Positions 42,718 to 61,009 of a DNA stretch of 64,000 nucleotides are shown here, piece by piece. How positions within the stretch are numbered: the stretch's first letter is position 1; every line of letters starts with the position of its first letter. The DNA is taken from the NCBI RefSeq assembly GCF_039503195.1, contig NZ_JBCJKP010000001.1:7006001-7070000 (forward strand). Direction: 5' to 3'. The stretch is from Streptomyces mirabilis (lineage in GTDB: Bacteria; Actinomycetota; Actinomycetes; Streptomycetales; Streptomycetaceae). Under the pieces are notes generated by a model. It was not told the DNA's origin and searched no databases. It saw only the letters and a list, made by a program, of their open reading frames with translations. Both the position numbers and the translations under genes were made by a program.

Positions 42718-42779
42718 CAGACTCTGTCGCGTCGGCTTGTCGTTGCAAGCTTCGGGACAGCACCGGACGGAACGAGACA
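42718..42779 (-). promoter_or_regulatory. Shared cluster promoter block, copy A (trimodular NRPS)
   Basis: In the NRPS sense: TGTCTCGTTCCGTCC (positions 1-15), GTCC (22-25), CTTGC (31-35), GACA (39-42) and GAGTCTG (56-62). The same blocks with the same spacing occur at 56221-56283 and 60948-61009. CTTGC and GAGTCTG are spaced like -35 and -10 boxes. The copy is 236 bases upstream of the NRPS start, giving a long leader. The rest of the 42483-42899 gap shows no gene. Confidence 0.75.
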
Positions 42780-42899
42780 ACGCGGAGGGCAAGTTCGGAC
42801 CTGAAGTGCCTCTGCTTCTGGGCGAGTTCGAGCCACTCCGACCGCCGGGCCCGAACCGGGGGATGGAACCTTCCGGACAGGAGACGCGTTTTACCTCAC

Positions 42900-43310
42900 A
42901 TGACAGGCATGTGGGCAGAGGCTGCACTCCCCGCGCTGGCGTTACTGTTGTTCGTCTGCTGCGGGGCGGAGTTGGCGATGCGGGGCTTCAAGGGGCGCAG
43001 TGTCCTGCGCTCCCGGCGGGGGCCCGCGAGACGCCCCCTGACGGGTTCCGCGTTCGACGAGTTCGGCCTGATGTTCAACGGCAACAAGTCGATCGAGATC
43101 GAACAGCAGCAACAGGATGAAGGACGCCGTGAGGAGGAGGGCGACGGTGCTCCGCCACGCACGCGCATCGACCTGGCCTCCGGCACGGCCCGGATAGTCA
43201 TCCTGCCCGCGGGAGGGCGGACCGGTCCGCGGTCGGCGGGCCCGTCCGGCGCCGGAGGGGAGTCCGGGTCCGGACGTGGGCAGGGTCCGCAGGAGGAGTC
43301 ACCCGTGTAG
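42900..43310 (+). CDS. DUF6191 family protein
   Basis: 136 residues: one N-terminal membrane segment (ALPALALLLFVCCGAELAM), then a basic, cytoplasmic region with the family pattern LTGSAFDEFGLMFNGNKSIE, IEQQQQDE and APPRTRIDLASGTARIVILP. The tail is Gly/Ser-rich. Function unknown; such genes are common single genes in streptomycetes, so it may be a bystander inside the cluster. ATG 42909 is an alternative start. Confidence 0.75.
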   Translation: MTGMWAEAALPALALLLFVCCGAELAMRGFKGRSVLRSRRGPARRPLTGSAFDEFGLMFNGNKSIEIEQQQQDEGRREEEGDGAPPRTRIDLASGTARIVILPAGGRTGPRSAGPSGAGGESGSGRGQGPQEESPV

Positions 43311-43627
43311 GTCGCCGCGGACCGGGCGGATCAGCGGACGCGCCGGTGCCGCCTGGCCGACATCCCGCGCCGGCCGAGCTGTCCCTTGGGGGACGCGGAG
43401 CCTGCCGGGCTTGCTCCGCCAATCCTTTCGGTCCATCGGCCGGGCCGTGCAAAAAATGCCATTGCAAGGGTTTCCGGGTGATCGTATGGTAATGGCGCCG
43501 AGGGTCTGTCAACGTGGCGCATGTCACTGACGGAGCGTTGTCGGGATATTGCACCGTTGCCGGGTGTGCGGCATCGTGCATTTCAGGCCGTACGCAGAAC
43601 AGTCACAAATCGGGGGATGGTGACGGA
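43311..43627. other. Intergenic region upstream of the DUF3995 gene
   Basis: 317 bases with a locally AT-rich stretch (AAAAAATGCCATTGCAAGGG around 43450) that probably holds a promoter. No gene or strong hairpin is visible. Confidence 0.5.
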
Positions 43628-44121
43628 TTGCGATTGAAGAGTTCGCGGTGGTATGGGTATCTCGCCGCCGGCTGGGCGACGATTTTCGCGAGTGCGCATT
43701 TCTTCTGGGCGCTCGGGGGAAAGTCGGGCTGGACATCTCCGCGGGACAGCGGCTCGCGGACGAGCGGCCGGGCTGGTTCGTGGCCGGCGGCCTGTGGGGA
43801 GTCGGCTGCCTCTGTCTGATCGGCGCCTCGGTGGCGCTGGGCCTGCGTCGACGTGGTGTCGACGGGCGCCCGTGGGGATTTCTCAAGATGCTCGGCTGGG
43901 GTATCGGCGGGCTGTTGCTCGTCCGGGGGATCCTCGTAGAGGTGCTGCTCATCACGGGTGTGGCGGAAGTCGACGGAGTCAGCTCCGCGCAGAAATTCTG
44001 GACACTCGCCTTGTGGAACCCCTGGTTCATTCTCGGCGGAGTGCTGTTCGGGCTGGCGGCGCGGAGCTTCGGGAAAGAAATGACCGGAGAAGTTGAATTG
44101 AGAAGCATAACGGCTCACTGA
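43628..44121 (+). pseudogene. DUF3995 membrane protein, reading frame broken near 43728
   Basis: The first frame (from TTG 43628, GGGGGA upstream) gives RLKSSRWYGYLAAGWATIFA and ASAHFFWALGGKSG; the family then continues in another frame as LDISAGQRLADERP to the stop at 44121, with three more membrane segments and WNPWFILGGVLFG near the end. One missing G in the run at 43726-43728 (GGG for GGGG) restores a single 165-residue protein. Function of DUF3995 is unknown. Real mutation or sequencing error cannot be told apart here. Confidence 0.7.
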
Positions 44122-44127
44122 GGGAAG

Positions 44128-44155
44128 GGTGAATTCACCGGGCCTGGTCCAGGTG
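44128..44155. promoter_or_regulatory. Palindromic sequences before the regulator gene
   Basis: GGTGAATTCACC (44128-44139) is a perfect 12-bp palindrome and is followed by CCTGGTCCAGG (44143-44153) and a TCACC/GGTGA pair enclosing the latter. They end about 26 bases before the TTG start, so they overlap the likely promoter and could be an autoregulatory operator or a terminator for the DUF3995 gene. Confidence 0.4.
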
Positions 44156-44180
44156 AGCATTCGGCACTACGGGGGATTAG

Positions 44181-45584
44181 TTGTCTTGGGCAACGTCTGA
44201 CAGTGTGACGGAATTTGTTCAGAATTTGCGAGAGCTTCGTCTGAGGGCTGGGCAGCCTTCCATGCGGCGTCTGCAGCAACTGGGCGGGCAGACCACCGCA
44301 CCCAGTGGTGACGTGGTGGACGCGTTGCCGCGAAGTACGATCTCGACGATCCTGCGGGGCAGTAAACTGCCGCGTGCGGAGTTCGTCTCCGCATTCGTGA
44401 CAGCTTGTCTGGTACACGGAAATCATCCGCCCGACAAGGTGGCAGAGACCACTGAGCGCTGGCTGGCTCGCTGGCGGACGCTCTACGCGGCGGAAGCGGC
44501 GGAGGGCGAGGTGGGGGAGACCACGGACGGCGAGGTGACCGTCGAGCCGTCGAGAACCGTGAACGTGCCACGGCATCTCCCGCTCGACGTAGGGTTCCTG
44601 GTCGGCCGTGAGGCAGAGCTCAAGGCGGCCGACGAGGTGAGCCGACTGCAGGCGCCTGACAACGTCGTCCTCGTTTCGGGCCCGGTCGGCGTCGGGAAGT
44701 CCGCGTTCGCGATCCGGTGGGCGCACCGACTGATCAACGACTTTCCGGACGGCCAGTTGTATGTCGATCTGCGCGGTGCCGACGGCCTGTTGACCACGGA
44801 GAGTGCCCTCGGAGTGCTGCTGGGCGGCCTGGGCCTGCACGAGGACGACTGGCCGGCGGATCCGTGGCGGCGAGTGGAGTGCTACCGGTCGCTGATAGCC
44901 GATCACCGGATGCTCGTCGTCCTCGACAACGCCTGCGACACCGAACAGGTGCGCCCGTTGCTCGCGACCGGTGGGCGCTGCCGGACCATCGTCACCAGCC
45001 GCAACCGGATGTCGGGACTGGTGGCCAGGGAGGGCGCGCGCCGACTGGTCCTCGACGTGCTCAGCGCCGAGTCCGCCTGCACGGTCCTGACCGCCATCAT
45101 CGGTGAGGAGTACGTGCGTGACGCACGGGCCGAGCTCGAGGAACTGGCCGAGCTGTGTGCGTACCTGCCGCTCGTGCTGCGGCTGGCCGCGGTCAAGTTC
45201 GCCGACCGGCCCGGTCAAGGCTTCAAGAACTTTGTCAGCGCGTTGCGTGACAACGACCGGTTGCTCTCGCTGAAACTCGACGACGACCGGGACAGCTCGG
45301 TCCGCGCGGCACTGGAGTCCTCCTACTGGATGCTCGACCTCGACGCGAGGTATTTCTTCCGCACGCTCGCGCTCGCCGAGGATGCGGAGTTCACCCTGGA
45401 AAGCAGTGCGGCGCTCGCCGGGATCTCGGTCGCCGAGGCCGACCGGTTGACCGGGCTGCTGGAGTCGGAACACTTCGTGGCGGGGGTGGGCAGAAGCCGC
45501 TTCACCATGGACCGAGTGCTCCAGGCCTTCGCCCGGACCATGAGGCGCGCGACCTGCGAGAGCCGGACGATGCTGGCGGGGTGA
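44181..45584 (+). CDS. XRE-type HTH / NB-ARC transcriptional regulator (cluster regulator candidate)
   Basis: 467 residues from TTG 44181 (GGGGGATTAG directly upstream). Residues about 10-80 form an XRE-like HTH (FVQNLRELRLRAG ... PRSTISTILRGSKLP). An NB-ARC ATPase follows: Walker A VSGPVGVGKSAFAI, Walker B MLVVLDN, sensor TIVTSRNRM and the winged-helix part LAELCAYLPLVLRLAA. No BTAD or TPR domain, so it is shorter than AfsR/SARP regulators. ATP-dependent oligomeric switches of this kind often control actinomycete antibiotic clusters. Its convergent neighbour ends 17 bases away. Confidence 0.85.
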   Translation: MSWATSDSVTEFVQNLRELRLRAGQPSMRRLQQLGGQTTAPSGDVVDALPRSTISTILRGSKLPRAEFVSAFVTACLVHGNHPPDKVAETTERWLARWRTLYAAEAAEGEVGETTDGEVTVEPSRTVNVPRHLPLDVGFLVGREAELKAADEVSRLQAPDNVVLVSGPVGVGKSAFAIRWAHRLINDFPDGQLYVDLRGADGLLTTESALGVLLGGLGLHEDDWPADPWRRVECYRSLIADHRMLVVLDNACDTEQVRPLLATGGRCRTIVTSRNRMSGLVAREGARRLVLDVLSAESACTVLTAIIGEEYVRDARAELEELAELCAYLPLVLRLAAVKFADRPGQGFKNFVSALRDNDRLLSLKLDDDRDSSVRAALESSYWMLDLDARYFFRTLALAEDAEFTLESSAALAGISVAEADRLTGLLESEHFVAGVGRSRFTMDRVLQAFARTMRRATCESRTMLAG

Positions 45585-45601
45585 GCGGTACGCCCACCTC
45601 C

Positions 45602-46141
45602 TTACTTCCGTGGGTTTCCCGGGCGACGTGGGGCGGGTGGGGCAGCGGTGGTGGATACCGCTGCCCCACCCCCGGCCACGACGGACAACGGGCGTGCCAC
45701 GGCGATCAGCGATCCGACGGTGAGGACGACACGGTCGCCGACGAGGCTCTCGCCGGACATGAACGCGTTGTCGTCCACCAGCCGGTCGATGCGTACACGG
45801 TGCCGGATCACGTCGCCAGGGAAAGCGGAGCCGGTGAACCGGCAGTTCCGGAGCCGGCCGACCATCGGCAGGCCGCCCCCGGCGGCGTCCGGGCCACCGT
45901 GGCTGCCGAGCCAGAGCAGTGCCGCGGACTGTCCGAACGACTCGAGGATCATCGACCGGGGATAGGCGTACCGCTCGGGCGGGAGATCGTCGGCCATGGC
46001 CTGGTAGCACGGTTCGCTGCCCGCGACCGCCTTCGCGGTTTCGATGCTGCGGTCCGCGTTGAACTCCGTGATCCGATCCACCAGCACCATCGGATGACGC
46101 ACCGGGAGGGACGCGAGGATCTGCCCGTATCCGGACCTCAC
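45602..46141 (-). CDS. FabZ/FabA-like hotdog dehydratase
   Basis: 179 residues from GTG 46141, overlapping the upstream gene by GTGA. Hotdog fold with the catalytic His in SLPVRHPMVLVDRI and the partner Glu in RSMILESFGQSAALL, so the full dehydratase dyad is present. A Pro/Ala/Arg tail follows. In highly reducing type II PKS systems such proteins dehydrate 3-hydroxyacyl-ACP to build the polyene. Last gene of the 15-gene operon. Confidence 0.85.
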   Translation of the reverse strand: MRSGYGQILASLPVRHPMVLVDRITEFNADRSIETAKAVAGSEPCYQAMADDLPPERYAYPRSMILESFGQSAALLWLGSHGGPDAAGGGLPMVGRLRNCRFTGSAFPGDVIRHRVRIDRLVDDNAFMSGESLVGDRVVLTVGSLIAVARPLSVVAGGGAAVSTTAAPPAPRRPGNPRK

Positions 46142-46587
46142 GCGATCCCTCCCCGAACGAGCTCGGTGGTCATCTTCGCGACCTGTGTGTCGTCGGCACG
46201 CCGGCAGTCGAGCACGGCCCGCAGGGCCCCCGGCGGCCCCGCCGTGACCTTGATGCGCAGGAGGAGTTCGTCCCCCTCGAGCATGGGCCTGAGCACCCGC
46301 GCCGACCCGAGCGTCCCCAGTTCGAGCCAGTCGCCGTGCGGGCCGCCCCGGCCGAGATGGGCGGCGAGCACGGGGGAGCGGTGCAGTTCGGCGCCGACCG
46401 CCTGCCGGATGCCGTCGAGGAGGAAGATCGCCGGGTAGAGCGTGATCCCCGGAAAGTGACCGGCGAGATAGGGATCGGTCGCCCGGACGGTCTTGGCCGC
46501 CTCGATCAGGAGCGCGTCCGCGTCGGCCCGCGCGGTGATCCGGTCGGTGGCATCGAGCGGCCGGGCGTAGGTCCGTTCCCCTCTCAC
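46138..46587 (-). CDS. FabA/FabZ-like hotdog dehydratase, second subunit
   Basis: 149 residues from GTG 46587. The hotdog motif GHFPGITLYPAIFLLDGIRQ is clear, but the residue aligned with the catalytic Glu is Asp. Immediately coupled (GTGA) to the canonical dehydratase downstream, so the two probably form a heterodimer like the paired dehydratases of other type II polyene PKSs. Confidence 0.82.
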   Translation of the reverse strand: MRGERTYARPLDATDRITARADADALLIEAAKTVRATDPYLAGHFPGITLYPAIFLLDGIRQAVGAELHRSPVLAAHLGRGGPHGDWLELGTLGSARVLRPMLEGDELLLRIKVTAGPPGALRAVLDCRRADDTQVAKMTTELVRGGIA

Positions 46588-46967
46588 AGGAACCACACCC
46601 CGTCGTAGTCCCCCCAGCGATGCGCGAGGTGGGCGGTGTCCAGCCGCGTGATCCCGGGCAGCAGGGCGGCGTCGGCCAGGCCGAAGGCCGCCAGCCCCGG
46701 CTGGTCGACGAAGACGGCCGCCCCCTTGTCCACCAGCGCGCGCACGGACCGTCGCGGGTCCGGCAGGGAGTCCAACACCGTCGGACCCACACGGAGTTCG
46801 GGCAGGGGGCCGGCATCGGCCAACGCGGCGGTGACCGTCGTCCCGCGCAGGATGATATCCATGCCACCGAGTTGGTCGCCGAGCATCTGGACTCCGTAGA
46901 GCGCGTCGAAGAACTGCGCTTCCGCGCTTCCGCGGTAACCGCGGTCGACGATGACCAGATAGGCCAT
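46584..46967 (-). CDS. DsrH/TusB- or DsrF/TusC-like small protein
   Basis: 127 residues, start codon directly abutting the stop of the previous gene (TAG ATG), with GGAGG upstream. The Rossmann-like pattern MAYLVIVDRGYRGSAEAQFF, ... FVDQPGLAAFGLADAALLPG and the ending DYDGVWFL resembles the small DsrE/F/H family. No cysteine at all, as in the non-catalytic subunits of the TusBCD sulfur relay. Function in a PKS operon is unknown. Similarity is weak and judged by eye. Confidence 0.55.
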   Translation of the reverse strand: MAYLVIVDRGYRGSAEAQFFDALYGVQMLGDQLGGMDIILRGTTVTAALADAGPLPELRVGPTVLDSLPDPRRSVRALVDKGAAVFVDQPGLAAFGLADAALLPGITRLDTAHLAHRWGDYDGVWFL

Positions 46968-47381
46968 CTACGCACCTCCGATGTAGACGGTCCGGTGGGC
47001 CGCGGCGATCGTGGCCGCCAGCCGGGCGTCGGAGCGCAGCCGGACCGCGGCGATGTGGTCCCGGGCTCCCCGTTCCGCGCTGCACGCCGTGCAGACGATC
47101 CAGCTGAAACGGCCCTTGTACGCGGTGAGCAGGCCCCGGATCAGTGCGGCGGCCGTCGGCGCCGACTTCGTGGGGTCCCGCAGGTCGGCCGGCTTGACAT
47201 CGCCCAGCGAACTCTGCGTCAGCATCGTGTTGTACCCGCACGCCCAGACCCGGATGGTGTGCTCCTGGTCCAGTACGGCCTGTGCCAGTCGGAGCACGGT
47301 GGTCAGGGTGTCGGTGGTGTGGGGCGGCGCGGTGAGGATGACGAGCACGTCCCAGGTGCGGCGTTCGACGATCGGACTCAT
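46968..47381 (-). CDS. DsrE/TusD-like protein with conserved cysteine
   Basis: 137 residues from ATG 47381. Matches the DsrE pattern: strand WDVLVILTAPPHTTDTL, helix TVLRLAQAVLDQEHTIRVWA, a central WIVCTACSAERGARD (Cys97 and Cys100, where TusD has its sulfur-accepting Cys) and the closing AAHRTVYIGGA. In TusBCD/DsrEFH such a Cys carries persulfide sulfur. Flanked by two Cys-free relatives, so the trio could form one hexameric complex. Role in cinnamoyl or peptide biosynthesis is not known to me. GTG 47393 is an alternative start. Confidence 0.65.
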   Translation of the reverse strand: MSPIVERRTWDVLVILTAPPHTTDTLTTVLRLAQAVLDQEHTIRVWACGYNTMLTQSSLGDVKPADLRDPTKSAPTAAALIRGLLTAYKGRFSWIVCTACSAERGARDHIAAVRLRSDARLAATIAAAHRTVYIGGA

Positions 47382-47383
47382 GG

Positions 47384-47719
47384 TCAGTGCCACACCACCC
47401 GGGTGCCGGACTCCAGGAGCAGCCGGGCCACGTCGGCCGTACCGGCGGACGTCACGCCCGCCTCGAGCGGTGCGGCGCGCAGGGTCCGGTGGTCGAGAGT
47501 GAACTCGTCGATCCAGACCCGCCCACCGGCGTCGAGGAACTCGCGCAGCTCCGCGCTCGCCCCCCGGATGCCGAGTGCGACGGCGTCGGCCGCGAGAAAC
47601 AGGCGCACCCGACCGCCGGTGTGTACCAGCGTGGCGGCGTCGGCCAGAAAGCGTTCCGCGGTGCCGTCGAAGCGGGTTTCGACGAGCAGGTACGACGTGG
47701 CCGCAGGGTCCTGGCTCAC
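47384..47719 (-). CDS. DsrE-like small protein
   Basis: 111 residues from GTG 47719, overlapping the ACP stop by GTGA. DsrE-like pattern: SYLLVETRFDGTAERFLADA, RVRLFLAADAVALGI, ELREFLDAGGRVWIDEF and VARLLLESGTRVVWH. No cysteine. Only 2 bases separate it from the Cys-containing relative, so stoichiometric synthesis of the trio is likely. Confidence 0.6.
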   Translation of the reverse strand: MSQDPAATSYLLVETRFDGTAERFLADAATLVHTGGRVRLFLAADAVALGIRGASAELREFLDAGGRVWIDEFTLDHRTLRAAPLEAGVTSAGTADVARLLLESGTRVVWH

Positions 47720-47973
47720 GTCGCCTTCCGCAGTTTCCGGTTCAGCAGCGCGCAGATGTCCGGCAACGTCCGCACGTCCGCTATCTCATGCGATTCGATC
47801 TTGACTCGATAGTGGCGTTCCAGCGTGACCGCCAGCTCCATGGCCAGGAGTGAGTCGACGCCGAGGTCGCGGATGAAATCGATCTCCTGTGTGATCGACT
47901 CCCCGTCGACCTCCAGCACATCGGCGATCATCTCGCGCAGCTCGTCCACGTCGAAGGTGGCCTCGACACTCAT
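47716..47973 (-). CDS. Acyl carrier protein (second ACP of the PKS operon)
   Basis: 85 residues. Phosphopantetheine Ser near residue 41 in RDLGVDSLLAMELAVTLERH. Acidic, one domain. It lies between the isomerase and the DsrE-like genes, whereas the first ACP heads the operon, so each may serve a different KS or a late tailoring step. Confidence 0.93.
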   Translation of the reverse strand: MSVEATFDVDELREMIADVLEVDGESITQEIDFIRDLGVDSLLAMELAVTLERHYRVKIESHEIADVRTLPDICALLNRKLRKAT

Positions 47974-48014
47974 GGGATTCCCCTCCGTTGTTCGTCTCCG
48001 GGCCGACCGAAAGG

Positions 48015-48731
48015 TCAGCCGCAGCCGCCCGCGTGGCCGGCGTCCCCGCCGGCGCGGATCGTTTCGGGCAGCGGACCGGCCTCGTCCAGCCAGCCGAGTT
48101 CGACCTCCTCGCCCGGCTCCTGGCCCCGGGCCTTCGCGACGTAGGCGCGCAGCCGATCCACGCCGAAGTACTTGTCGTGGCCGTGGATGAAGAACGGGAC
48201 GCCGAACAGACCGTCCTTGTGCGAGCGGATCAGGGTGTCCGCGCCCCGGCGCCGTACGGCCGGATCATCCGAGGCGTCGGCCACCGGGCCCGGGTCCAGG
48301 CCGAGTTCGACCGCGAGTTCGGCGATGGTGGCACGGTCGGTGATGTCCCGGCTCTGCTGCCAGCGGGCACGGTAGGCGAGCGCCACGTACTCCCGGCCCA
48401 GCCCGGCCTCCTCCGCCACCAGATAGCCGAGGTGGGCGACTTCCCAGTTGGGGTCCCGGTCCACCGGCCAGGTGACGGCGAGTCCGCGGGCCTCGGCCAG
48501 CCGGCGCGTGTCCTGGAGGATGTAGAAGTTCTTCGCCCGCGACATCTCCACGATCGACAGCCGGACGCCGTCCGCGTCCAGCAGCTCCTGGGTCTGCTCG
48601 TCCGGTTCCCAGAACGGGATCCACTCGATCGTGTCCGCCACGTCGGGGTAGCGGCTCAGCAGGTCGTGGTAGGCGAACCACGAGTAGGGGCTGCGCAGGG
48701 AGAAGTACCAGCGGGGTGGTTTCCTGGCCAT
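48015..48731 (-). CDS. DsbA-family / 2-hydroxychromene-2-carboxylate isomerase-like protein
   Basis: 238 residues. Thioredoxin-fold HCCA-isomerase pattern: RWYFSLRSPYSWFAYHDLL, IEWIPFWEPD, the central AEEAGLG...ALAYRARWQQSRDI and DGLFGVPFFIHGHDKYFGVD. The Ser of SLRSPYSW replaces the DsbA Cys, as in glutathione-dependent isomerases. Cinnamoyl-lipid clusters (skyllamycin, WS9326A, kitacinnamycin types) contain such an isomerase, thought to set the double-bond geometry needed for ring closure; I infer that role here. Confidence 0.85.
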   Translation of the reverse strand: MARKPPRWYFSLRSPYSWFAYHDLLSRYPDVADTIEWIPFWEPDEQTQELLDADGVRLSIVEMSRAKNFYILQDTRRLAEARGLAVTWPVDRDPNWEVAHLGYLVAEEAGLGREYVALAYRARWQQSRDITDRATIAELAVELGLDPGPVADASDDPAVRRRGADTLIRSHKDGLFGVPFFIHGHDKYFGVDRLRAYVAKARGQEPGEEVELGWLDEAGPLPETIRAGGDAGHAGGCG

Positions 48732-48758
48732 GTCGGGTGGCCTCCTTTCCGGTGGGGT

Positions 48759-49504
48759 TCAGAGCGAGATGCCGCCGTCGATCTCCAGCACCGTCCCGGT
48801 GATGTAGGCCGCGCGGGGGAGACGAGGAACGACACCAGGTCGGCCACCTCCCCGGCCCGACCCATCCGCCGCAGTGCCGTCCGCCCGACGGCGTCCTCGG
48901 TGACCTTCGGACTGAGGACGGCGGTCATGTCGGTGTCGATGTACCCGGGGGCCACGACGTTCGCGCGGATCCCGTAGGGGCCGACCTCCTTGGCCAGCGA
49001 ACGGGTGAAGCCGATGATCCCCGCCTTGGCCGCCGCGTAGTTGGTCTGCCGGGCGTGTCCGTGCACACCGGCGACCGAGGACAGATTGACGATCACCCCG
49101 GACTTGCTCTTCATCATCTCGAAGATCGCGGAACGGCAGACGTTGTACATGCCATCGAGGTTGACGTCGAGGACGCTGTGCCAGTTCTCGTCCGGCATCA
49201 GGGCCAGCGCGCCGTCCTTGGTCACGCCTGCGGAGGTCACGACGGCGTCGATGGGGCCGAGTTCGTCCTCGGTGCCGCGGACCCACGCCCGCACGCCGTC
49301 GGCGTCCGCGACGTCGACGCGGGTGGGGACCGCCCGCCTTCCCAGCCGGGCGACCTCCTTCTCCAGCTCCCGGGCCGAATCCTCGCTGCTGCGGTAGCAG
49401 AACGCGACGTCGTAGCCGTCGTGCGCCAGGCGGTGCACGATCGCACGGCCGATGCCGCGGGACCCGCCGCTCACCAGCGCGACCGGTGACGGTGTCTCAG
49501 ACAT
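48759..49504 (-). pseudogene. 3-oxoacyl-ACP ketoreductase (FabG-like SDR), frameshifted near its C-terminus
   Basis: From ATG 49504: NADPH motif VSGGSRGIGRAIV, SAGVTKDGALALM, catalytic Ser and YxxxK in NLSSVAGVHG...TNYAAAKAG, then VAPGYIDTDM. After SFLVSP the frame breaks: the C-run at 48815-48819 has five instead of six bases, and the expected RAAYITGTVLEIDGGISL continues in the neighbouring frame to the stop at 48759. All catalytic residues are upstream, but the C-terminus closing the substrate pocket is lost unless the base is a sequencing error. As read, the frame runs on to 48656 with an unrelated tail. Role: reduces the beta-keto group in each PKS cycle. Confidence 0.88.
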
Positions 49505-49588
49505 GCGCGCTCCCATATTCCTTCGCAAGTTCGTCAAGAGTCGGCGTGGGGCAGCGGGGTACGGCGGACGGCATCGCTGTCCTGCCCC

Positions 49589-50632
49589 TCATCGCAGCCG
49601 GAACAGCGCGCAGCCGAGCACGTTGTCGCGGTCGGCCGACAGCACCGCCGCGATCCGGCCCCGGGCGGCGGGGTCTCGTTCGGCCGCTGCCAGCACCGAA
49701 GCGATCTGGAACGGGGCGGCCGCGGCACCGGCGTCCCCCCAGACGTCCTCACCGGGCAGTGTCAGCGGGTCGGCCCCGTCGAAGGGGACCGGGGCCTGCC
49801 CGGCCGAGGGGGAGACGGCCCACAGATCCGCTGCCGTTGCCCCGGCCTGTGCCAGCGAGCGGGACAGGCAGCGCGTCAGTGAGGCAGCCAGATCGCCGTC
49901 CCGGAACACCCCCAGCGTGACCCCGAGGACCTCGGCGAGCACCGGCGCGTCGGCGGGTGCCTCGGGTTCGAGCAGCAGCAGTGAGCAGCCCTCGCCGAGC
50001 ACGGCCGGCCGTGCGGGGTCGCCGGAGTGGTACTCCAGCCAAGCCCGTTCGGGCGTGAGTTCCTCCGCACCGCCGCAGAGCACCGAGCGGGCGCGGCCCG
50101 AGGAGAGCAGCCGGAGGGCGTAGCGCAGGGCGAACAGTCCGGCCGCCCGGCCGCCCGCGACGGTCGTGTTGGGGCCCTTGAGGTCGTGCCGGATGGCGCA
50201 CTGCGCGGCCGAGCTGTTCATGATCGCGTTGGGGATCCGCGCCGTGTCGATGTGGTACGGCCGTGCCCGGGTGAGTGTGTCCCGGGTGATCTCCATCATG
50301 CTCCTGGCGCTGCCGGCGGTGGTGCCGAGCACGAGCGCCGCGTGCTCGCCGGTGGCGACCGTGCGATGGCGACCGGCCGAGTCGAGCAGCTCGCCGACCG
50401 CTGCGACGGCCAGCGCCGAGACCCGGTCCATCGACCGGGTGCCCTTGCGCCCGAGCACTTCCTCGGTGACGAAGCCGGGCACCCGGGCGGCCCGGCGCTG
50501 CGGGACCGGCCACGGGTCGGGGCTGAGGCGGGTCACCGCGGGCGTCCCCGCCGCGACTCCGTTCACGAACGCCTCTCGGCCGACGCCGTACGGCGAGATC
50601 GCCGACCAGGCGGAGATGACCGGCGCGGTCAT
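49589..50632 (-). CDS. Ketosynthase-like protein lacking the active-site Cys (CLF-like)
   Basis: 347 residues of thiolase fold, shorter than the usual 400. The Cys position reads AGGRAAG (Arg where KS has Cys), so it cannot form the acyl-enzyme. The fold is otherwise recognisable in ISAWSAISPYGVGREAF, TTAGSARSMMEI and GEGCSLLLLEPE. Likely a partner that shapes chain length for one of the catalytic KSs. ATGA overlap with the upstream double-hotdog gene. Confidence 0.8.
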   Translation of the reverse strand: MTAPVISAWSAISPYGVGREAFVNGVAAGTPAVTRLSPDPWPVPQRRAARVPGFVTEEVLGRKGTRSMDRVSALAVAAVGELLDSAGRHRTVATGEHAALVLGTTAGSARSMMEITRDTLTRARPYHIDTARIPNAIMNSSAAQCAIRHDLKGPNTTVAGGRAAGLFALRYALRLLSSGRARSVLCGGAEELTPERAWLEYHSGDPARPAVLGEGCSLLLLEPEAPADAPVLAEVLGVTLGVFRDGDLAASLTRCLSRSLAQAGATAADLWAVSPSAGQAPVPFDGADPLTLPGEDVWGDAGAAAAPFQIASVLAAAERDPAARGRIAAVLSADRDNVLGCALFRLR

Positions 50633-51639: not shown

Positions 51640-52526
51640 CAGGTGCGCTCCACTAGCGTTGAAAGGGGCCGCATCCGGGCCGTTTCGGGGTGGGCGGTGA
51701 TCCGGCGCAGGAACCCGTCGAGCACGGCCGCGAACCGGGCGGGCCGCTCGGACATCGGGAAGTGCCCGGTCCCCTCGATCGTGTGCAGGGCCGCCGAGGG
51801 CGTCCGCGCGACCAGGGTCTCGGCTTCCGCGGGCACAGCGATGCGGTCCTCGGCGCCGGACACGACCAGCGTGGTGGTCCGCAGCTCCGCCGTGCGCAGC
51901 CACGGTGTACGGAGGTACGTCTCGAGGAACCGCGACCAGCCGTAGGGGCCGATCGTCTCGCACAGCCGTTCCGCCATGGCGCGGTGCAGTTCGGGCTTCG
52001 CCCGCGACCCGGCCGCGACGCGAATGCCCTCCTCCATGGTGCGGACGAACTGCTCGGGCAGTCCCTTCAGGGTGTCCCAGTCGAAGTCCTCGGGCCGGGG
52101 CCGGAAGAAGGGGGACACCAGCACGATTCCCCCGATGCGGTGTTCGGCGGGTGCTGACGGTCCGCAGAGGAGGTCGAGCAGCAGCATGGCGGAGAACGAG
52201 TGCGCCACCACGACATCGGCCGGGCCGGCTGTGGCGGCCATCTGGTCCAGTGTGTCGGAGATCCACGTGGTGGGCTCGGGACGGTGCGCCCAGTCGGAGG
52301 GTCCGGTGCCGCGCCAGGGCAGTGCGGCCGAGTGAAGCCGGGCTCGCCGCAGGACGTCGTGGTGCGGCGCGAGCGCGCACAGCCTGTCCCAGACGGCGCT
52401 GCTGTCCGCCATGCCGTGCAGCAGCAGCACCCGAGGCCCTGCCTCGCCGGCATCGGCGGTCGTGCGTTGCTGGAGCAGGACCGGGGCCACTCGCTCGGCC
52501 CGGTGGGGCGGGTGCGTAGGCATCAT
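51639..52526 (-). CDS. Alpha/beta hydrolase
   Basis: 295 residues. Oxyanion motif LLLHGMADSSAVWDRL, nucleophile elbow VVAHSFSAMLLLDLL (Ser), acid in VSGAEDRIAVPAEAE and catalytic His in EGTGHFPMSERP, so the triad is complete. No lid insertion. In a PKS operon this may be a type II editing thioesterase or a cyclisation helper. Coupled on both sides by ATGA/TGATG overlaps. Confidence 0.85.
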   Translation of the reverse strand: MMPTHPPHRAERVAPVLLQQRTTADAGEAGPRVLLLHGMADSSAVWDRLCALAPHHDVLRRARLHSAALPWRGTGPSDWAHRPEPTTWISDTLDQMAATAGPADVVVAHSFSAMLLLDLLCGPSAPAEHRIGGIVLVSPFFRPRPEDFDWDTLKGLPEQFVRTMEEGIRVAAGSRAKPELHRAMAERLCETIGPYGWSRFLETYLRTPWLRTAELRTTTLVVSGAEDRIAVPAEAETLVARTPSAALHTIEGTGHFPMSERPARFAAVLDGFLRRITAHPETARMRPLSTLVERT

Positions 52527-53521
52527 GGGCGGCTCACCGTGTCCCCGGCAGCGGTGTGAACCGGTGCTGTGAGGACGAGCCCCGCGACGGCGTCGTCGGC
52601 ATCTGTGCCGGACACCGCGTACACCGGACCGTCCCCGCCGACGGCGAAGTGGCCGACGGCGGCGGCGCATTGAAGGACCCCCAGCGCGCCCGAGGCCGGG
52701 CCCCAGCGGTCTTCGAGATCGTGCCGGAGCACACCGGCGAGGGTCGAGGCCGGTGCGTTCCGCGGCGCGAACCACGCGCGCGCGGAGCCTGCGAGCGCGG
52801 ACACGCAGTCGGCCAGCCCGCCGGTGCGGAGATAGCCGTCCACTCCGGCGAGGGCGGGGGCGTTGCGCCCGGCCGCGGCTTTCGTGGTCTCCAGCAGCAG
52901 AGCGGCGGCGCCGTCCAACGGCTGGTCCTGTCCGACGAGTTGCCGGACGACGTCGTTGGCCGGCTCGACGCCGACCACCAGGACATGCCGGGCGCGGCCG
53001 CTCGACAGCCAGATCGTCGCCCAGTGCACGGCGTCGAGACCGGAGGTCGCTCCATTGCACACCATCACGTTCGGGCCGCGCAGCCCGAACCGGATCGCGA
53101 GCTCGGAAGCGGTGACGTTGCTCGACAGCCGCGGTGCGAGGACCGGGCTGATGAGCCGGGTGCCGTGGTCCGCCGAGATGGCGGCGACGACCTCGCACAC
53201 CGAGTCGAGGTTGCCGAAGTTCGAGCTGACGACGACTGCGACCGACTCGGCGGGCACCAGCAGTTCGGCGTCGACGACCGGCGCGCCGCCGCGCTGGGTG
53301 TTCATCCGGGCGTCGCCGCGCATCAGCCCGGCGGAGTTCAGCGCGTCCCGGGCGGCGCAGAGCGCGAGTTGGGTCGCGCGGTCCTGATGGCGCAGTCCCT
53401 TCTTGCCGATCCGGGCCGCCGGGTCGACCGGCGCCGCGCCGACGGCGGTCCCGGTCGTCAGGTCGGAGGGTATGAGGACACCGGGCATCGCCAGGCCGAT
53501 TCCGGTCACGACCGCGTTCAT
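52523..53521 (-). CDS. Ketosynthase-like chain-length factor (no active-site Cys)
   Basis: 332 residues of KS fold. Where KS has Cys the sequence reads VCNGATSGLDAVHW (Ala in line with the nucleophile; the Cys visible is four positions too early). Typical CLFs carry Gln here, so this is unusual. Directly downstream of a catalytic KS with ATGA overlap, the classical KS-CLF gene arrangement, and the likely heterodimer partner of 53518-54660. Confidence 0.82.
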   Translation of the reverse strand: MNAVVTGIGLAMPGVLIPSDLTTGTAVGAAPVDPAARIGKKGLRHQDRATQLALCAARDALNSAGLMRGDARMNTQRGGAPVVDAELLVPAESVAVVVSSNFGNLDSVCEVVAAISADHGTRLISPVLAPRLSSNVTASELAIRFGLRGPNVMVCNGATSGLDAVHWATIWLSSGRARHVLVVGVEPANDVVRQLVGQDQPLDGAAALLLETTKAAAGRNAPALAGVDGYLRTGGLADCVSALAGSARAWFAPRNAPASTLAGVLRHDLEDRWGPASGALGVLQCAAAVGHFAVGGDGPVYAVSGTDADDAVAGLVLTAPVHTAAGDTVSRP

Positions 53522-54660
53522 CGGCCACCGGCCACGAGCGCGACGGCGTTGATCCCGCCGAAACCGAAGGCGTTGACCTGCGCCAGCGCCAGGTCCGCCG
53601 GTGCGGGCGCGCCCCGCACGATCCTGAAGTCCGCGACCTCGTCGATCGGTTCGTCGAGGCCCAGGGTCGGGGGAACGAGCCCGTCCGCCATGGCTCTGAG
53701 CGCGATGATCAGGCTGTGCAGACCGGAGGCGCCGGAGGTGTGACCGGTCATCGATTTCATCGCCGTCATCAGTGTCGTTTCCGGGGTGGTTCCGAACACC
53801 GCACGCATGGCCTGTGCCTCGGCGACGTCGTTGGCGTGGGTTCCGGTGCCGTGGAGCATCACCAGATCGACGTCCTTCGGTCCGGTGCCGGCCCGCCGGT
53901 GCGCGTCGTGGACGGCGGCGGCGATGTTCCCGGCGTGCGGCGCGGTGGCATGGTGGGCGTCGCAGTTGACGGCGACGCCGCGCACCCGGCCGAGGCACGG
54001 GCGACCCGGCTCGCGGGTGCGGCGCAGCACCACGGCCGAGGCCCCTTCGCCGAGGATCGTGCCCCGCCGGTTGCGGTCGAACGGTCGCACGGTGTCCGGC
54101 GCCACCGACTGCAGGCGGTCGGCGACCCCGACCATGCTCTCGGTGACGACATCGACGCCCGCCACGACCACGGTCTCGGCACCGCCGGCCAGCAGGTCGC
54201 AGGCCATCGAGAGCGCGTAGAGCGAGGCTGAACAGGCATTTGAGAAGGTGTACGTCATCGTCGCGCCGAAGCGTTCCCGTAGCGCGTGGCCGAAGTGCAG
54301 CCGGTCGGCGGACCACGGGATGCCCTCGCGTGCCCACAGCTCGACCGAGCGCAGTTCACGCAGCCCCGTGCCGACCAGGACGGGGGTGTCTCCCAGCTGT
54401 TCGCCCATCCCGGCGTCTGCGAGTGCCTGTCCGATCGCGTCGAGGAGGAAGGCGGAAGCCCGGCCCGGGACGTCCCCGGAGCCCACGCGGTCGTCGATCT
54501 CGAACAGGCGGTCGCCGGTGTAGTGCGACCGGTCGAAGCCGCGCATGGGGTGCAGCCCGGACGTGCCCGCGCACAGGGCGTCGAAGATCTCGGCGGGGGA
54601 CCGGCCGATGGCGGCCACCGCGCCGGCGCCGGCGATCGGCCAGCCTGGATGCTCGCTCAC
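53518..54660 (-). CDS. Beta-ketoacyl synthase (KS) of the type II PKS
   Basis: 380 residues from GTG 54660 (GTGA overlap). Catalytic triad: Cys in TFSNACSASLYALS, His in LHGTGTHANDVAEA, His in MTGHTSGASGLHS. The FGFGGINAVALV end is complete. Catalyses decarboxylative elongation of the ACP-bound chain, presumably with the CLF-like protein encoded next. Confidence 0.92.
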   Translation of the reverse strand: MSEHPGWPIAGAGAVAAIGRSPAEIFDALCAGTSGLHPMRGFDRSHYTGDRLFEIDDRVGSGDVPGRASAFLLDAIGQALADAGMGEQLGDTPVLVGTGLRELRSVELWAREGIPWSADRLHFGHALRERFGATMTYTFSNACSASLYALSMACDLLAGGAETVVVAGVDVVTESMVGVADRLQSVAPDTVRPFDRNRRGTILGEGASAVVLRRTREPGRPCLGRVRGVAVNCDAHHATAPHAGNIAAAVHDAHRRAGTGPKDVDLVMLHGTGTHANDVAEAQAMRAVFGTTPETTLMTAMKSMTGHTSGASGLHSLIIALRAMADGLVPPTLGLDEPIDEVADFRIVRGAPAPADLALAQVNAFGFGGINAVALVAGGR

Positions 54661-55883
54661 ACGGACTCCTCGTACCGGCCCAGGACCGCGACCGCGTTGT
54701 TGCCCCCGAAGCCGAGTCCGTTGTTCTGCACGATCCGCAGATCGGCCTCGACGGCGTGGTTGGGCACACAATCGATACGGCACTCCGGGTCGGTGCGGTT
54801 GTGGTTGATGGTCGGGGGGATGAACCGGTGGGTGATCGCCAGCGCGCAGGCGATCGCGGCCAGCGCGCTCGCGGCGCCCATGGTGTGCCCCAGCATCGAC
54901 TTGACCGACACCGCGCGCGGCGGACGGTCGCCGTAGATCTCCCGGATCGCCTGGGACTCCGTGACGTCGTTGGCCTTGGTGCCGGTACCGTGCGCCGAGA
55001 TGAGGTCGACCTCGTGCGGCTTCACCTTCGCGTTCTCCAGGGCGAGCGCCATCACCCGGGCCACGCTGGACCGATCCGGCGCGACCTGGTGATAGGCGTC
55101 GCAGTTGAGGCCGTAGCCGAGCACCTCCGCGTAGATCCGGGCTCCACGGGCGAGCGCCGAGTCCAGGCTCTCCAGCACCAGCACGCCGGCGCCTTCGCCG
55201 GTGAGGATGCCCTTGCGCTCGATGTCGAAGGGACGGCAGCAGTCGGGGGCGATGGTGCCCAGCCGGTAGAACCCGGCGAAGGTCTTCCGGCACATGGCGT
55301 CCGCGCCGCCGCAGAGTGCGAAGTCGACGTCGCCGGAGCGGACCGCGTCGTAGCCGTAGCCGATGGCGTAGTTCCCGGCGGCGCAGGCCGTCGGGATGGT
55401 CACTGCCTCGACGTCGGACAGTCCGAGCTCCAAGGCGACGGCCGAGGAGAGCCGGCCGGCCCGCAGCCGGGCCGCGACCCGCGGGTCCATGGCCGCGGAG
55501 CCGTCCGCCAGTTCGGTCTCGACCAGTTCGTCGAGGTCGCGCGACTCGCCGTCGGTGGTGCCGATGGAGATCAGGCCGGGCTGCCCGCGCAGCACATCGA
55601 GATCCAGCCCGGCGTCCTGGACGGCCATCCGTGCCGCCGACACCGAGAACCGGCTTGCCGGTCCCAGCGAGCCGACGGGAAGATCGCGGACCCACTCCTC
55701 CGTGTCGAACTCACCGAGCCCGCAGCCGGTGGAGTGCTCGAAGCCGACGGTGTCGAACGCCGTGATCGGTTTGGCACCGCTGCGTCCGGCTCGTAGGCCG
55801 GCGACGAACTCGTCGACCCCGGTACCGATGCTCGACAGCACGCCGAGGCCGGTCAGGACGACCCGCCTGTCGGATGACGCCAT
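54657..55883 (-). CDS. Beta-ketoacyl synthase (FabF-like KS) of the type II PKS
   Basis: 408 residues from ATG 55883 (GGTGGAG just upstream; GTG 55892 possible). Cys in TIPTACAAGNYAIGYGY (about 167), His in SAHGTGTKANDVTESQ and in MLGHTMGAASAL, ending LGFGGNNAVAVLGRYEE. Follows the ACP by 30 bases. Two complete KSs in one operon suggest either two elongation systems or a starter-specific KS. Confidence 0.93.
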   Translation of the reverse strand: MASSDRRVVLTGLGVLSSIGTGVDEFVAGLRAGRSGAKPITAFDTVGFEHSTGCGLGEFDTEEWVRDLPVGSLGPASRFSVSAARMAVQDAGLDLDVLRGQPGLISIGTTDGESRDLDELVETELADGSAAMDPRVAARLRAGRLSSAVALELGLSDVEAVTIPTACAAGNYAIGYGYDAVRSGDVDFALCGGADAMCRKTFAGFYRLGTIAPDCCRPFDIERKGILTGEGAGVLVLESLDSALARGARIYAEVLGYGLNCDAYHQVAPDRSSVARVMALALENAKVKPHEVDLISAHGTGTKANDVTESQAIREIYGDRPPRAVSVKSMLGHTMGAASALAAIACALAITHRFIPPTINHNRTDPECRIDCVPNHAVEADLRIVQNNGLGFGGNNAVAVLGRYEESV

Positions 55884-55913
55884 CAGCTCCACCTTCCCTG
55901 TGCGAGCCGGTCG

Positions 55914-56171
55914 CTACTTCGTCCAGCCCGCGGATCCGGCCACGACGTCGTAGACGCCCCGAAGATTCGTCATCCGCTCGAGATCGGCCTGGTCGATGAC
56001 GACGCCGAACTCGCGCTCCAGTGACCCCAGGATCTCGATGGCGCGCAGCGAGTCCGCGCCGTACTCCTCCTTGAACAGGCCCTCGTCCGTGACTTCGTCC
56101 TCTTCGAGCTCAAGGATGTCGCAGACGATTTCTTTAATCTTCTCGAAATTCTTCTCAGCGATGTTGACCAC
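55914..56171 (-). CDS. Acyl carrier protein (first gene of the PKS operon)
   Basis: 85 residues from GTG 56171. Phosphopantetheine Ser near residue 41 in EEYGADSLRAIEILGSLERE. Heads the minus-strand operon 50 bases downstream of the shared promoter block at 56221-56283. Confidence 0.94.
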   Translation of the reverse strand: MVNIAEKNFEKIKEIVCDILELEEDEVTDEGLFKEEYGADSLRAIEILGSLEREFGVVIDQADLERMTNLRGVYDVVAGSAGWTK

Positions 56172-56220: not shown

Positions 56221-56283
56221 CAGATTTCACCTGCGCGGGCGGTGTCCCGCAAGATCATGGACGCTACGGGACGGAATGAGACG
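56221..56283 (-). promoter_or_regulatory. Shared cluster promoter block, copy B (PKS operon)
   Basis: In the ACP sense: CGTCTCATTCCGTCC (1-15), GTCC (22-25), CTTGC (31-35), GACA (38-41) and GAAATCTG (56-63), matching copies A and C base for base in the first blocks and in spacing. It ends 49 bases before the ACP start and probably drives the whole 15-gene operon. The rest of 56172-56443 should hold the hydroxylase promoter. Confidence 0.78.
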
Positions 56284-57902: not shown

Positions 57903-57924
57903 CCGGACCCCCTGCCTTCGGGGT

Positions 57925-59073: not shown

Positions 59074-59357
59074 TCATGCTGGCGAACCGCGAGGAGACCT
59101 CGTTGGTCGCGCGGGCGCTGAGCGGAATCGGGATCGGAGCGCCGGTCGTCGACGAGGAACGGAACACGATCGCGGTCCCCGTGTCCGGGGGAACCGACGC
59201 GCTGACGGCCGGAGTCCGCGCACTCGACACGGCGGGAGTGCGGCCGGTCGACATCGGGCTGCGGCGTCCCACGCTGGACGACGTTTTCCTTCAGCTGACG
59301 GGGGCCGGGACCGGGCCGTCCCGACCGGGGCGGACGGGACGGAGGGGTACGGCATGA
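59067..59357 (+). pseudogene. C-terminal fragment of a DrrA-type ABC ATPase
   Basis: Only the DUF4162-like tail remains: LHVMLANREETSLVARALSG, VVDEERNTIAVPVSGGTDAL, LDTAGVRPVDIGLRRPTLDD, VFLQLTG. The whole nucleotide-binding core (Walker A, signature, Walker B; about 220 residues) is missing. It overlaps the permease gene by ATGA, as intact drrA-drrB pairs do. Its lost 5' end faces the lost 5' end of the dehydrogenase. Confidence 0.8.
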
Positions 59358-60155
59358 CCGCGCTGACCGACGGGCTGGCCGATGGATGGATCATCGCGCG
59401 CCGCAACGTCATCCGGACGCGACGGGCGCCGGACGTACTGCTTCTGACACTGCTCCAACCCATCATGTTCGTGCTGCTGTTCGCGTACGTGTTCGGTGGC
59501 TCCATCAAGGTGCCGGGGGTGAACTACCGCGAGTACCTGATGGCCGGGATCTTCGTCCAGACGGTGGCGTTCGGCTCGTCGATGACGGGCGCGGGACTGG
59601 CCGCCGACCTGCAGACGGGAGTGATGGACCGGTTCCGGTCCATGCCGATGTCCCGGGCGGCGGTGCTGCTCGGTCGCACCACCAGCGACCTGCTGGGCAA
59701 TCTGGTCACCGTGCTGGCCATGGCGTTGTGCGGGCTGCTCGTCGGATGGCGGACACACACCGGCCTCGGTCAGGTGGCCGCCGGACTGGGCCTGCTCCTG
59801 CTGTTCGCCTACGCGATGAGCTGGATCTCGGCCACGATCGGGCTGACCGTGCGCAGCCCCGAAGTCTCCCAGACCGCCGGTTTCCTCCTGCTGTTCCCGC
59901 TGACCTTCGTGTCCAACGTGTTCGTCGCAGGCGACACACTTCCGTCCGGGCTGCGACCGGTGGCCGACTGGAACCCGATCAGCACGGTCACGCTCGCGCT
60001 GCGCGATCTGTGGGGCAACGCCCCGGCCGGCCCGGCCCGTGGCGGGCGTGCCCGCCGAGCATCCCGCGCTGGTCTCGCTTGGCTGGATCGCGGTGATCCT
60101 GGCCGTCTTCCTGCCGTTGGCGGTCGACCGCTTCCGGCGTGCCGCTCGCCGCTGA
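59354..60155 (+). pseudogene. DrrB-type ABC-2 permease, frameshifted near its C-terminus
   Basis: From ATG 59354: MTALTDGLADGWIIARRNVI, LLQPIMFVLLFAYVFGGSIK, then helices up to FPLTFVSNVFVAGDTLPSGL and WNPISTVTLALRDLWG, typical of daunorubicin-type exporters. Near 60036-60038 the frame shifts: VAGVPAEHPALVSLGWIAVI and the last helix LAVFLPLAVDRFRR continue in the +1 frame to the stop at 60155. One extra C or two missing C explain it. Without the final helix the permease would be defective. Presumed self-resistance/export system of the cluster. Confidence 0.82.
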
Positions 60156-60204
60156 CGCCCGTCACCGGGACTGTGCACGTCACTCGGTCGGCCATCGACG
60201 AAGT

Positions 60205-60247
60205 GTGCCGCTGCCCGAGGTGTCCGGAACACCTCGGGCAGCGGCAC
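60205..60247. terminator. Bidirectional terminator between permease and apoprotein genes
   Basis: Perfect 19-bp inverted repeat (60205-60223 and 60229-60247) with a 5-base loop CCGGA. It lies between the convergent permease (ends 60155) and apoprotein (ends 60284) genes and can end both transcripts. Confidence 0.85.
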
Positions 60248-60283
60248 GGTCATACGGAGCGACCGCCCCTCGGGCGGTGTTGC

Positions 60284-60733
60284 TCAGGCGAAGGAGATCG
60301 CCGCGGTGTCGTGGTTCTGGGCCTCGTTGGACGCACCGATGAAGCAGCCACCGGCGATGGTGGCGCAGTTGACGTCCACCGTGGCCCCGGACTGGTCCTG
60401 GCCCTGGAACGTCTTCTTCACGGTGAACGCCGTCGAGCCGGCGCCGGTGGCGTCGGTGGTGAGCTGCTTGATTCCGGCGACGTCGCACACCAGCGTCCCG
60501 GCCGCGGGGTCGCCGGCGCACTCGGTCGCGGAGACGGCCTCGGCGGCACCGAAGCCCGTGACGTTCACGGTGACGCTCGCGCCGTCGGAGAGACCGGTCG
60601 AGGGGGTGACCGTCACGCCGACCGCCGTGGCCGCGGCCGTGGCGGGAACCGACACGGCCAGCATGGCCGTGACGGCCGCGGCGCCGGTGAGACCGGCCTT
60701 CGAAATGAGCGCGATCCTCTTCTTGGAAATCAA
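60284..60733 (-). CDS. Neocarzinostatin-family secreted apoprotein
   Basis: 149 residues from TTG 60733 (GGAG eight bases upstream). Sec signal (SKKRIALISKAGL, hydrophobic stretch, cleavage near ATAAA, residue 33) and a mature part of about 115 residues, the size of neocarzinostatin apoprotein. The family pattern is clear: VGVTVTPSTGLSDGASVTVN, TTDATGAGSTAFTVKKTFQG, ending AISFA; four Cys (72, 83, 123, 130) match the two conserved disulfides. Known members bind and protect enediyne chromophores. No enediyne genes are in the window, so it may bind the cluster product or another hydrophobic ligand. Confidence 0.88.
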   Translation of the reverse strand: MISKKRIALISKAGLTGAAAVTAMLAVSVPATAAATAVGVTVTPSTGLSDGASVTVNVTGFGAAEAVSATECAGDPAAGTLVCDVAGIKQLTTDATGAGSTAFTVKKTFQGQDQSGATVDVNCATIAGGCFIGASNEAQNHDTAAISFA

Positions 60734-60947
60734 GGTGCTGGCTCCAATTCAGGATGGGGGGTGAATGGTCGACATTCGCGCAATGAGTGCCGAGTGATGG
60801 TGATTCCCGGGGTATTTCCTACGCGGATTCACTGGCAGCGCGAAATCATTTGGTGTCGATCCATTTGGAGGCTACAAGTCGGCCTGTGGGTCGTCAACCA
60901 CGACCTGAACAAAAAGGAACCGCCCTTTCCGGCAGACGTATGCCCGC

Positions 60948-61009
60948 TGTCTCGTTCCGTCCCATGGCGTCCGCCCCCTTGCTGGGACAGCGTCGCGCGG
61001 GCGAGCCTG
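60948..61009 (+). promoter_or_regulatory. Shared cluster promoter block, copy C (mbtH-NRPS)
   Basis: TGTCTCGTTCCGTCC (1-15), GTCC (22-25), CTTGC-like CTTGC (31-35), GACA (39-42) and GAGCCTG (56-62). Same spacing as copies A and B. Ends 34 bases before the mbtH start. The 60734-60947 part of this gap is AT-richer and should contain the promoter of the apoprotein gene; no gene is visible there. Confidence 0.78.

Follow-up and report, generated by a model that had tools for sequence, protein, structure and literature searches.

The window analyzed here, 64,000 nucleotides of Streptomyces mirabilis (contig NZ_JBCJKP010000001.1, positions 7,006,001 to 7,070,000 of the forward strand), carries a biosynthetic gene cluster in which three transcription units are each preceded by a copy of one block of about 62 base pairs (bp), and, between two of these units, the gene of a candidate regulator that we call REG. 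These genes and sites are given below by window coordinates, with orthologous sites named by genome, where G000 is the source genome, G392 is Streptomyces diastatochromogenes ATCC 12309, G393 is S. spirodelae, and G394 is S. jumonjinensis.

31050..42482, minus strand: trimodular nonribosomal peptide synthetase (NRPS) with N-methyltransferase and thioesterase; putative target unit 1.
42718..42779, minus strand: site 1, before the trimodular NRPS (31050-42482); half-sites GTCTC (42778-42774), GTCCG (42768-42764) and GTCC (42758-42755); CTTGC at 42749-42745 and -10-like GAGTCT at 42724-42719; orthologous sites in G016, G247, G392 and G393.
44181..45584, plus strand: REG, 467 aa, with an XRE-like helix-turn-helix (HTH, about residues 9-107) and an NB-ARC domain (about 130-460); proposed reader of the sites.
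45602..56171, minus strand: operon of acyl carrier protein (ACP), ketosynthase and reductase genes, for a cinnamoyl acyl chain; putative target unit 2.
56221..56283, minus strand: site 2, before the ACP gene (55914-56171) heading this polyketide synthase (PKS) operon; half-sites GTCTC (56282-56278), GTCCC (56272-56268) and GTCC (56262-56259); CTTGC at 56253-56249, inverted GGGACA at 56248-56243 and -10-like AAATCT at 56227-56222; orthologous sites in G016, G247, G286, G392, G393 and G394.
60948..61009, plus strand: site 3, before mbtH (61044-61247) and the second NRPS; half-sites GTCTC (60949-60953), GTCCC (60959-60963) and GTCC (60969-60972); CTTGC at 60978-60982, GGGACA at 60984-60989 and -10-like GAGCCT at 61003-61008; orthologous sites in G016, G247, G286, G392 and G393.
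61044..64000, plus strand: mbtH and the start of the second NRPS; putative target unit 3.

Re-reading the sequence reproduced the coordinates and strands given for the three copies in an earlier note on this DNA, and the blocks YGTCTCRTTCCGTCC at positions 1-15, GTCC at 22-25 and CTTGC at 31-35 stand at the spacing described there in all three of them. The GACA word, placed in that note at 39-42, is found there in copies 1 and 3, but at 38-41 in copy 2, and the downstream -10-like box of copy 2 (GAAATCTG) is one base longer than described. Not mentioned in the earlier note is a direct repeat with a period of 10 bp, formed by GTCYC at block positions 2-6, GTCCN at 12-16 and GTCC at 22-25. The core of the element, GTCTCRTTCCGTCC-N6-GTCC-N5-CTTGC (also written GTCTCRTTCCGTCCN6GTCCN5CTTGC), has three exact matches in the source genome (11,137,671 bases in two contigs), at 42745-42778 (minus), 56249-56282 (minus) and 60949-60982 (plus), with no additional match in that genome at up to three mismatches and none for the reversed control pattern. 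Taken by itself, the 14-bp first block is likewise matched exactly at these three places and nowhere else; at up to two mismatches, it occurs at 126 places in this genome, vs 87 for the control.

Extending the search for the core to 392 genomes of the same genus, at up to three mismatches, gave 37 places in 28 genomes, vs 16 places for the control (counts from our own tables). The nine places with zero or one mismatch are all in G000, G016, G247 and G286, upstream of orthologous genes, and two more, with three mismatches, precede the NRPS ortholog in G016 and G247, while the other 26 of the 37 places, with two or three mismatches, are near the control level of 16. Counted with these near-background places are the three-mismatch place G286 C1 and a two-mismatch place in G144, which, judged by eye, overlaps the start of a MerR-like gene and which we set aside. 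The four genomes with the closest matches are also those with the closest homologs of the ketosynthase at 54657-55892 (100, 91, 90 and 81% for G000, G016, G247 and G286, respectively); the next-closest, G384 and G165 (78%), have no motif match. Confinement of the motif to cluster promoters, which the earlier note had named as the support to look for, is thus what the genome-wide and 392-genome scans returned at zero to one mismatch, and the many unrelated full-spacing matches across the genome that it had named as grounds for refutation did not materialize.

A scan of the contigs with a REG alignment gave nine loci, of which five are in ATCC 12309 (99%), S. echinatus, S. hygroscopicus ATCC 21589, S. 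spirodelae (66%) and S. jumonjinensis (40%) and the other four are distant, and the genomes of six of these loci were searched with a looser form of the motif pattern. At zero mismatches, this pattern occurs at four sites in ATCC 12309, three in S. spirodelae and one in S. jumonjinensis, with an additional three-mismatch place in the last (G394 C172); in three genomes with distant REG homologs, it was not found within three mismatches, and the control pattern gave two matches in G393 and one in G396. The same looser pattern at up to one mismatch, applied to 293 order-level genomes (partly the same as the genus set), returned G000, G016 and a match in G206 that sits within a coding frame and that we discount as chance. 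In total, this amounts to 19 sites in seven clusters (three in G000, four in G392, three each in G016, G247 and G393, two in G286 and one in G394), which precede an NRPS, ACP or mbtH gene orthologous to those here, apart from one before a second ketosynthase operon. The NRPS-promoter site was not found in G286, nor the NRPS- and mbtH-promoter sites in G394, where in both cases the cluster contig ends close by in the stretch examined.

Two weaker copies lie outside this count. One, in G338 (L084, 7926-7959), matches the core with three mismatches, is followed by GGACA and lies just upstream, on the opposite strand, of a gene whose product combines a REG-like HTH (blastp 5e-6) with a long C-terminal part. 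The other, a partial copy in S. jumonjinensis (L125, 15960-15993), consists of two GTCCC words 10 bp apart and then GGGACA, upstream of a second ketosynthase-like gene.

For the anatomy of the element, three G392 sites that repeat the G000 sequence were removed from the 19, leaving 16. Across these, core positions 1-3 (GTC), 11-14 (GTCC), 21-23 (GTC) and 30-33 (CTTG) are invariant, and the stretch at 25-29 is free to vary. The first letters of the three GTC words are thus at 1, 11 and 21. As the search pattern itself fixed this spacing, it holds for these sites, and other spacings are possible elsewhere. Half-site 3 ends 5 bp before CTTGC. The earlier note had described CTTGC and the downstream box as spaced like a -35/-10 pair, and 13 of the 16 sites agree with this, in which the spacer from TTGCNN to a RANYCT or AGATCT box is 17-19 bp, vs the 16-19 bp of sigma-70/HrdB promoters; no such box was found at this spacing at the ACP sites of G286 and G394 and the site before KS1b, the second ketosynthase operon, in G392. 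Where the box is present, the last half-site lies 29-31 bp from it. A GGAC word follows CTTGC in 12 of the 16 sites, and in none of the four at NRPS promoters.

The similarity of three blocks within one cluster could in principle stem from recent copying of one promoter, without regulatory meaning. We attach practically no weight to this explanation, given that the same blocks stand in the orthologous promoters of seven clusters while their flanks have decayed. Over 28 orthologous promoter pairs (the close pair G016/G247 being left out), identity is 0.93, 0.97 and 0.96 in the three blocks, vs 0.68, 0.49 and 0.79 between and just after them. It falls to 0.39-0.45 further toward the -10 region, and the outer flanks reach just 0.30-0.41.

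The GGAC word also bears on the nature of the element, as the GTCC of the second repeat can pair with it in those 12 sites, as might be expected if the block were a transcribed RNA leader (an attenuator or riboswitch) and not a DNA operator. We reject this highly improbable reading: the pairing is broken in all four NRPS-promoter sites without a compensating change, an Rfam search gave no match at gathering scores, mbtH starts just ~35 bp after the block, and the even spacing of the repeats suggests a protein on duplex DNA.

The question then is which protein. Pfam returns NB-ARC as the sole good match for REG, as a domain with its P-loop, and NCBIfam and Protein Data Bank profile searches align residues ~119-467 to AfsR (8k60, E 3.3e-101). 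No Pfam match to REG was found up to E 10 for a TPR, WD40 or LRR sensor domain, nor for OmpR-type DNA-binding and BTAD domains, and the protein ends at 467 aa. In a predicted structure (pLDDT, the predicted local distance difference test, 86), the N-terminal part is modeled as a domain of five helices into which a small beta element is inserted, and the remainder as a CED-4/NLR-like NB-ARC part; the model of the isolated N-terminal domain shows a moderate resemblance to XRE proteins among the best 50 ranks of a fold search. The HTH_31 profile does not match REG itself; among homologs of REG, which score 0.0097, 0.0014, 1.5e-5 and 1.7e-6, the one at 1.7e-6 alone reaches the curated cutoff. The fusion of an XRE-like HTH to NB-ARC recurs among the REG homologs listed. 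We note that P0001, a public-database entry for REG, has 440 aa and 94% query cover, such that its annotated start may cut the HTH; conservation begins near residue 12.

REG and the motif occur together. With four candidates per genome scored across the 392 genomes, best matches with E from 0 to 1e-101 were obtained, among the matches listed, in G000, G016, G247 and G286 only; the next-best listed match, at 5.7e-67, aligns to the NB-ARC part. Weaker, nearly full-length matches in G304 (39%), G271 (36%) and G382 (36%) are in genomes without the motif at zero to one mismatch. All four genomes with the motif at this threshold therefore have a REG ortholog, vs none of the other 388 (p = 1e-9 for the 2x2 table, which overstates independence since the genomes are related), and REG is present in seven of the seven clusters that carry the motif. 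No other regulator-like gene was found among the listed genes shared by the clusters, that of S. jumonjinensis included, a scan that covered shared genes and not those unique to one cluster.

The half-site itself offers a second line of evidence. With the REG HTH as query, matches were found in 6 of 61 genomes. Of four non-REG loci whose upstream regions were read (L150 and L152 in the wrong orientation), one, L151, showed a TGTCC array and was then used as query, giving 32 matches in 29 of the 61 genomes. Setting aside REG and two other matches left 29, for which upstream regions of 320 bp were examined; one of these, L169, is truncated at the end of its contig and was excluded, so that 28 remain. 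In these, TGTCC occurs 61 times, compared to a mean of 11.6 and a maximum of 26 in 200 first-order Markov resamplings, and compared to 8 in coding regions and 11 in regions farther upstream. Pairs of the form TGTCC-N4-7-TGTCC, mostly spaced 11 or 10 bp, number 20 vs 0.1 in the shuffles, and none was found at 221 control genes. Since L151 had been chosen as query after its array was seen, the count was repeated with L151 and its 96% twin removed, and the remaining 26 upstreams give 44 TGTCC vs 9.9 and 10 pairs vs 0.06; thinning of close relatives (20 upstreams) left 26 vs 7.3, and four pairs, from two genes, vs 0.03. In a ranking of all 5-mers, TGTCC comes first by instances in all three sets and third by number of genes (19 of 28); it is concentrated, with two or more copies in 14 of the 28 genes and a spaced pair in nine.

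The third helix of the aligned HTHs keeps S52, T53 and L58 throughout, and R51 in 12 of 14 sequences; R51 is missing from two distant homologs, L126 and L127, neither of which has a significant site. At the 5' end of the former, the REG homolog of Actinorhabdospora filicis, GTCTC and GTCC words lie in the same 10-bp phase (9906-9939). These words are not significant by weight matrix, as 19 of 200 shuffles reach their score, making this a weak test on distant homologs.

The reverse test was mixed. Triple-TGTCC places number 62 in 41 genomes, vs 32 for the control pattern, and of 30 loci read, one has a REG-like HTH, 11 have another HTH_31-like gene directly downstream (spotted with a profile built from ten of the same loci) and 18 have neither; Pfam on three of the 11 gives HTH_31 with DUF5753 and not NB-ARC. 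The TGTCC word therefore goes with XRE-type genes beyond the clade of REG. The tandem arrays at these 11 loci (L187, L188, L189, L190, L198, L202, L203, L204, L205, L207 and L212) have a period of 10-11 bp, and several of the loci also have a divergent ATPase-like gene.

Taking these observations together, the protein at 44181, which the earlier note had put forward as the obvious activator candidate, continues to be the best candidate, by its co-occurrence with the motif, as the lone regulator-like shared gene found, and by its HTH relatives, whose tandem TGTCC repeats upstream of their own genes lend independent support. From the sequence comparisons, REG is most likely the reader of the sites, and it probably switches the pathway on or off. 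We regard as distinctly unlikely the alternative that a regulator from another part of the genome reads the sites and that REG merely travels with the cluster: binding by REG is deduced from sequence, and the test on distant homologs is weak, leaving some room for such a regulator, but the motif (at zero to one mismatch) is absent from 388 of the 392 genus genomes and present exactly where REG is, and the HTH relatives of REG carry the same half-site.

The mechanism that we consider likely is that the 62-bp block is a cluster-specific operator-promoter read by REG, which would switch on the three units together. Three GTCYC half-sites, one helical turn (10 bp) apart and on one face of the DNA (approximately -66 to -43), would abut a -35-like CTTGC, followed by a weak -10-like RANYCT. 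Each protomer of REG would occupy one half-site through its XRE/HTH_31-like N-terminal domain, and the NB-ARC part, on switching nucleotide state, would align the protomers side by side over three turns; a protein array of this extent, just upstream of a weak promoter, is the reading that comes most naturally. At this otherwise poor promoter, the bound array would then touch both sigma region 4 and the alpha C-terminal domain, turning on the NRPS, PKS and mbtH-NRPS units at once. Of this scheme, binding, oligomerization, the sign of the effect and the contacts with RNA polymerase are what we infer.

Known systems provide partial precedents. WhiJ9, an XRE-type activator of S. venezuelae, is reported to bind three direct repeats at the iosA-whiJ9 intergenic site (PMC10294661), and resembles REG in its XRE-type N-terminal HTH and its three repeats, with reported activation of its target promoter. 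It differs in the repeat word (CGXXCTCAAC vs GTCYC here), in the position of the site, 113 bp upstream of the start, and in its role in development and not in a biosynthetic cluster (PMC10294661). AfsR is the closest solved relative of the NB-ARC part of REG, and AfsR and the NB-ARC members of the Streptomyces antibiotic regulatory proteins (SARPs) are reported to share direct repeats one helical turn apart, poor -35/-10 elements and a function as antibiotic regulators (PMC10936776); REG, in contrast, has an XRE-like HTH in place of the SARP domain, and a TPR was not found in it. The reported SARP sites have a period of 11 or 22 bp and a last repeat 8 bp from the -10 (PMC10936776), compared to 10 bp and ~30 bp for the sites here, such that classification of REG as a SARP fails both on the protein (OmpR and BTAD not found) and on the operator (period and -10 distance). 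MalT, the Escherichia coli STAND activator, is reported to be nucleotide-switched, with oligomerization important for its binding to the multiple sites of a promoter; its DNA-binding domain is C-terminal and it has a maltotriose-sensing domain, unlike REG with its N-terminal HTH and no sensor domain found (PMC10427625).

Against activation stands Atr32, the NB-ARC SARP of the atratumycin cinnamoyl cluster, which is reported to be a negative regulator (PMC6835768), and we therefore apply the word activator to REG only provisionally. REG might bind the same sites and repress, with half-site 3 and the inverted GGGACA crowding the -35 and the array blocking RNA polymerase until a signal arrives. 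The proximity of half-site 3 to CTTGC, the GGAC found after it in most sites, the report on Atr32, and the autoregulatory appearance of the repeats before the HTH relatives' own genes would all fit such a repressor; conversely, the repeats sit upstream of the weak -10, as for an activator, GGAC is absent in all four NRPS-promoter sites counted, and WhiJ9, the three-repeat precedent, is reported to activate (PMC10294661). On balance, we consider repression unlikely, if less so than an outside regulator, and continue to favor activation by REG of all three units.

A search of the open-licence literature, by titles and abstract starts, found no paper on this motif or on the operator of an XRE-NB-ARC protein. 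Here, a regulator and its probable operator can be paired from sequence for an XRE-like HTH/NB-ARC fusion, and the known relatives of this cluster family are reported to rely on LuxR regulators (PMC9381841). Paired LuxR regulators are reported for the cinnamoyl clusters of gla, skyllamycin, cinnapeptin and atratumycin (PMC9381841), in which, as here, the regulators are cluster-situated and the clusters have related cinnamoyl PKS genes, but the regulator family is unrelated to that of REG; the phrase "binding site" is absent from the text of PMC9381841. The pairing might serve as a handle on a pepticinnamin-like pathway, and it makes DNA reading by an NLR-like oligomer with no sensor domain found open to study. 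A bolder generalization, which we advance tentatively and hold to be rather doubtful, is that tandem GTCYC/TGTCC repeats one turn apart are a general DNA code of actinobacterial XRE-type HTHs with an (R)ST...L third helix, of which REG would be the version fused to an NLR-like NB-ARC oligomerizer, a CED-4-fold protein counting three helical turns to switch a pathway. If this were true, the spacing (10 or 11 bp) and number of repeats would pair regulators with the promoters of unknown clusters by sequence alone.

Turning to the remainder of the cluster, one more feature adjoins REG:

43648..44121, plus strand: gene of a DUF3995 protein, just before REG and in the same orientation.

It was matched beside REG in G016, G247, G286, G392 and G393, and no match was found in the stretch examined of S. 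jumonjinensis, which retains the site. Gene orders are rearranged between the clusters while the sites are kept. KS1b is divergent from mbtH across a common intergenic region in G016, G247 and S. spirodelae; in ATCC 12309, an ABC transporter and a neocarzinostatin-family gene lie between them, and KS1b has a fourth site of its own, starting 125 bp upstream of the protein match. Window positions 58016-59061 and 59045-64000 align to stretches of ATCC 12309 that are ~3.7 kb apart, and KS1b, its partner and the fourth site have therefore gone from the source genome. At the deletion joint (59045-59061), a CrtI-like gene (57925-59040) and an ABC ATPase (from 59076) meet, each represented by its C-terminal part.

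The gene types present comprise a cinnamoyl PKS set, a Phe/Tyr hydroxylase, an O-methyltransferase, a flavin halogenase and an N-methylating NRPS, and the PKS, hydroxylase, O-methyltransferase and halogenase genes fit a pepticinnamin-type product; we tentatively take the cluster to be of this type. The neocarzinostatin-family gene at 60284-60733, adjoining an ABC-2 transporter, is matched here and in ATCC 12309, and is unmatched in the cluster stretches examined of G016, G247, G286 and G393. The second NRPS (61290-64000) is split near 62.5 kb into overlapping frames, 61290-62732 and 62531 onward, by a mutation or a sequencing error, and is a single continuous frame in G016 and G247. The flavin halogenase (L071, 4905-6392) lies just to the right of the window, after the second NRPS, and is also present in G016, G247, G392 and G393.

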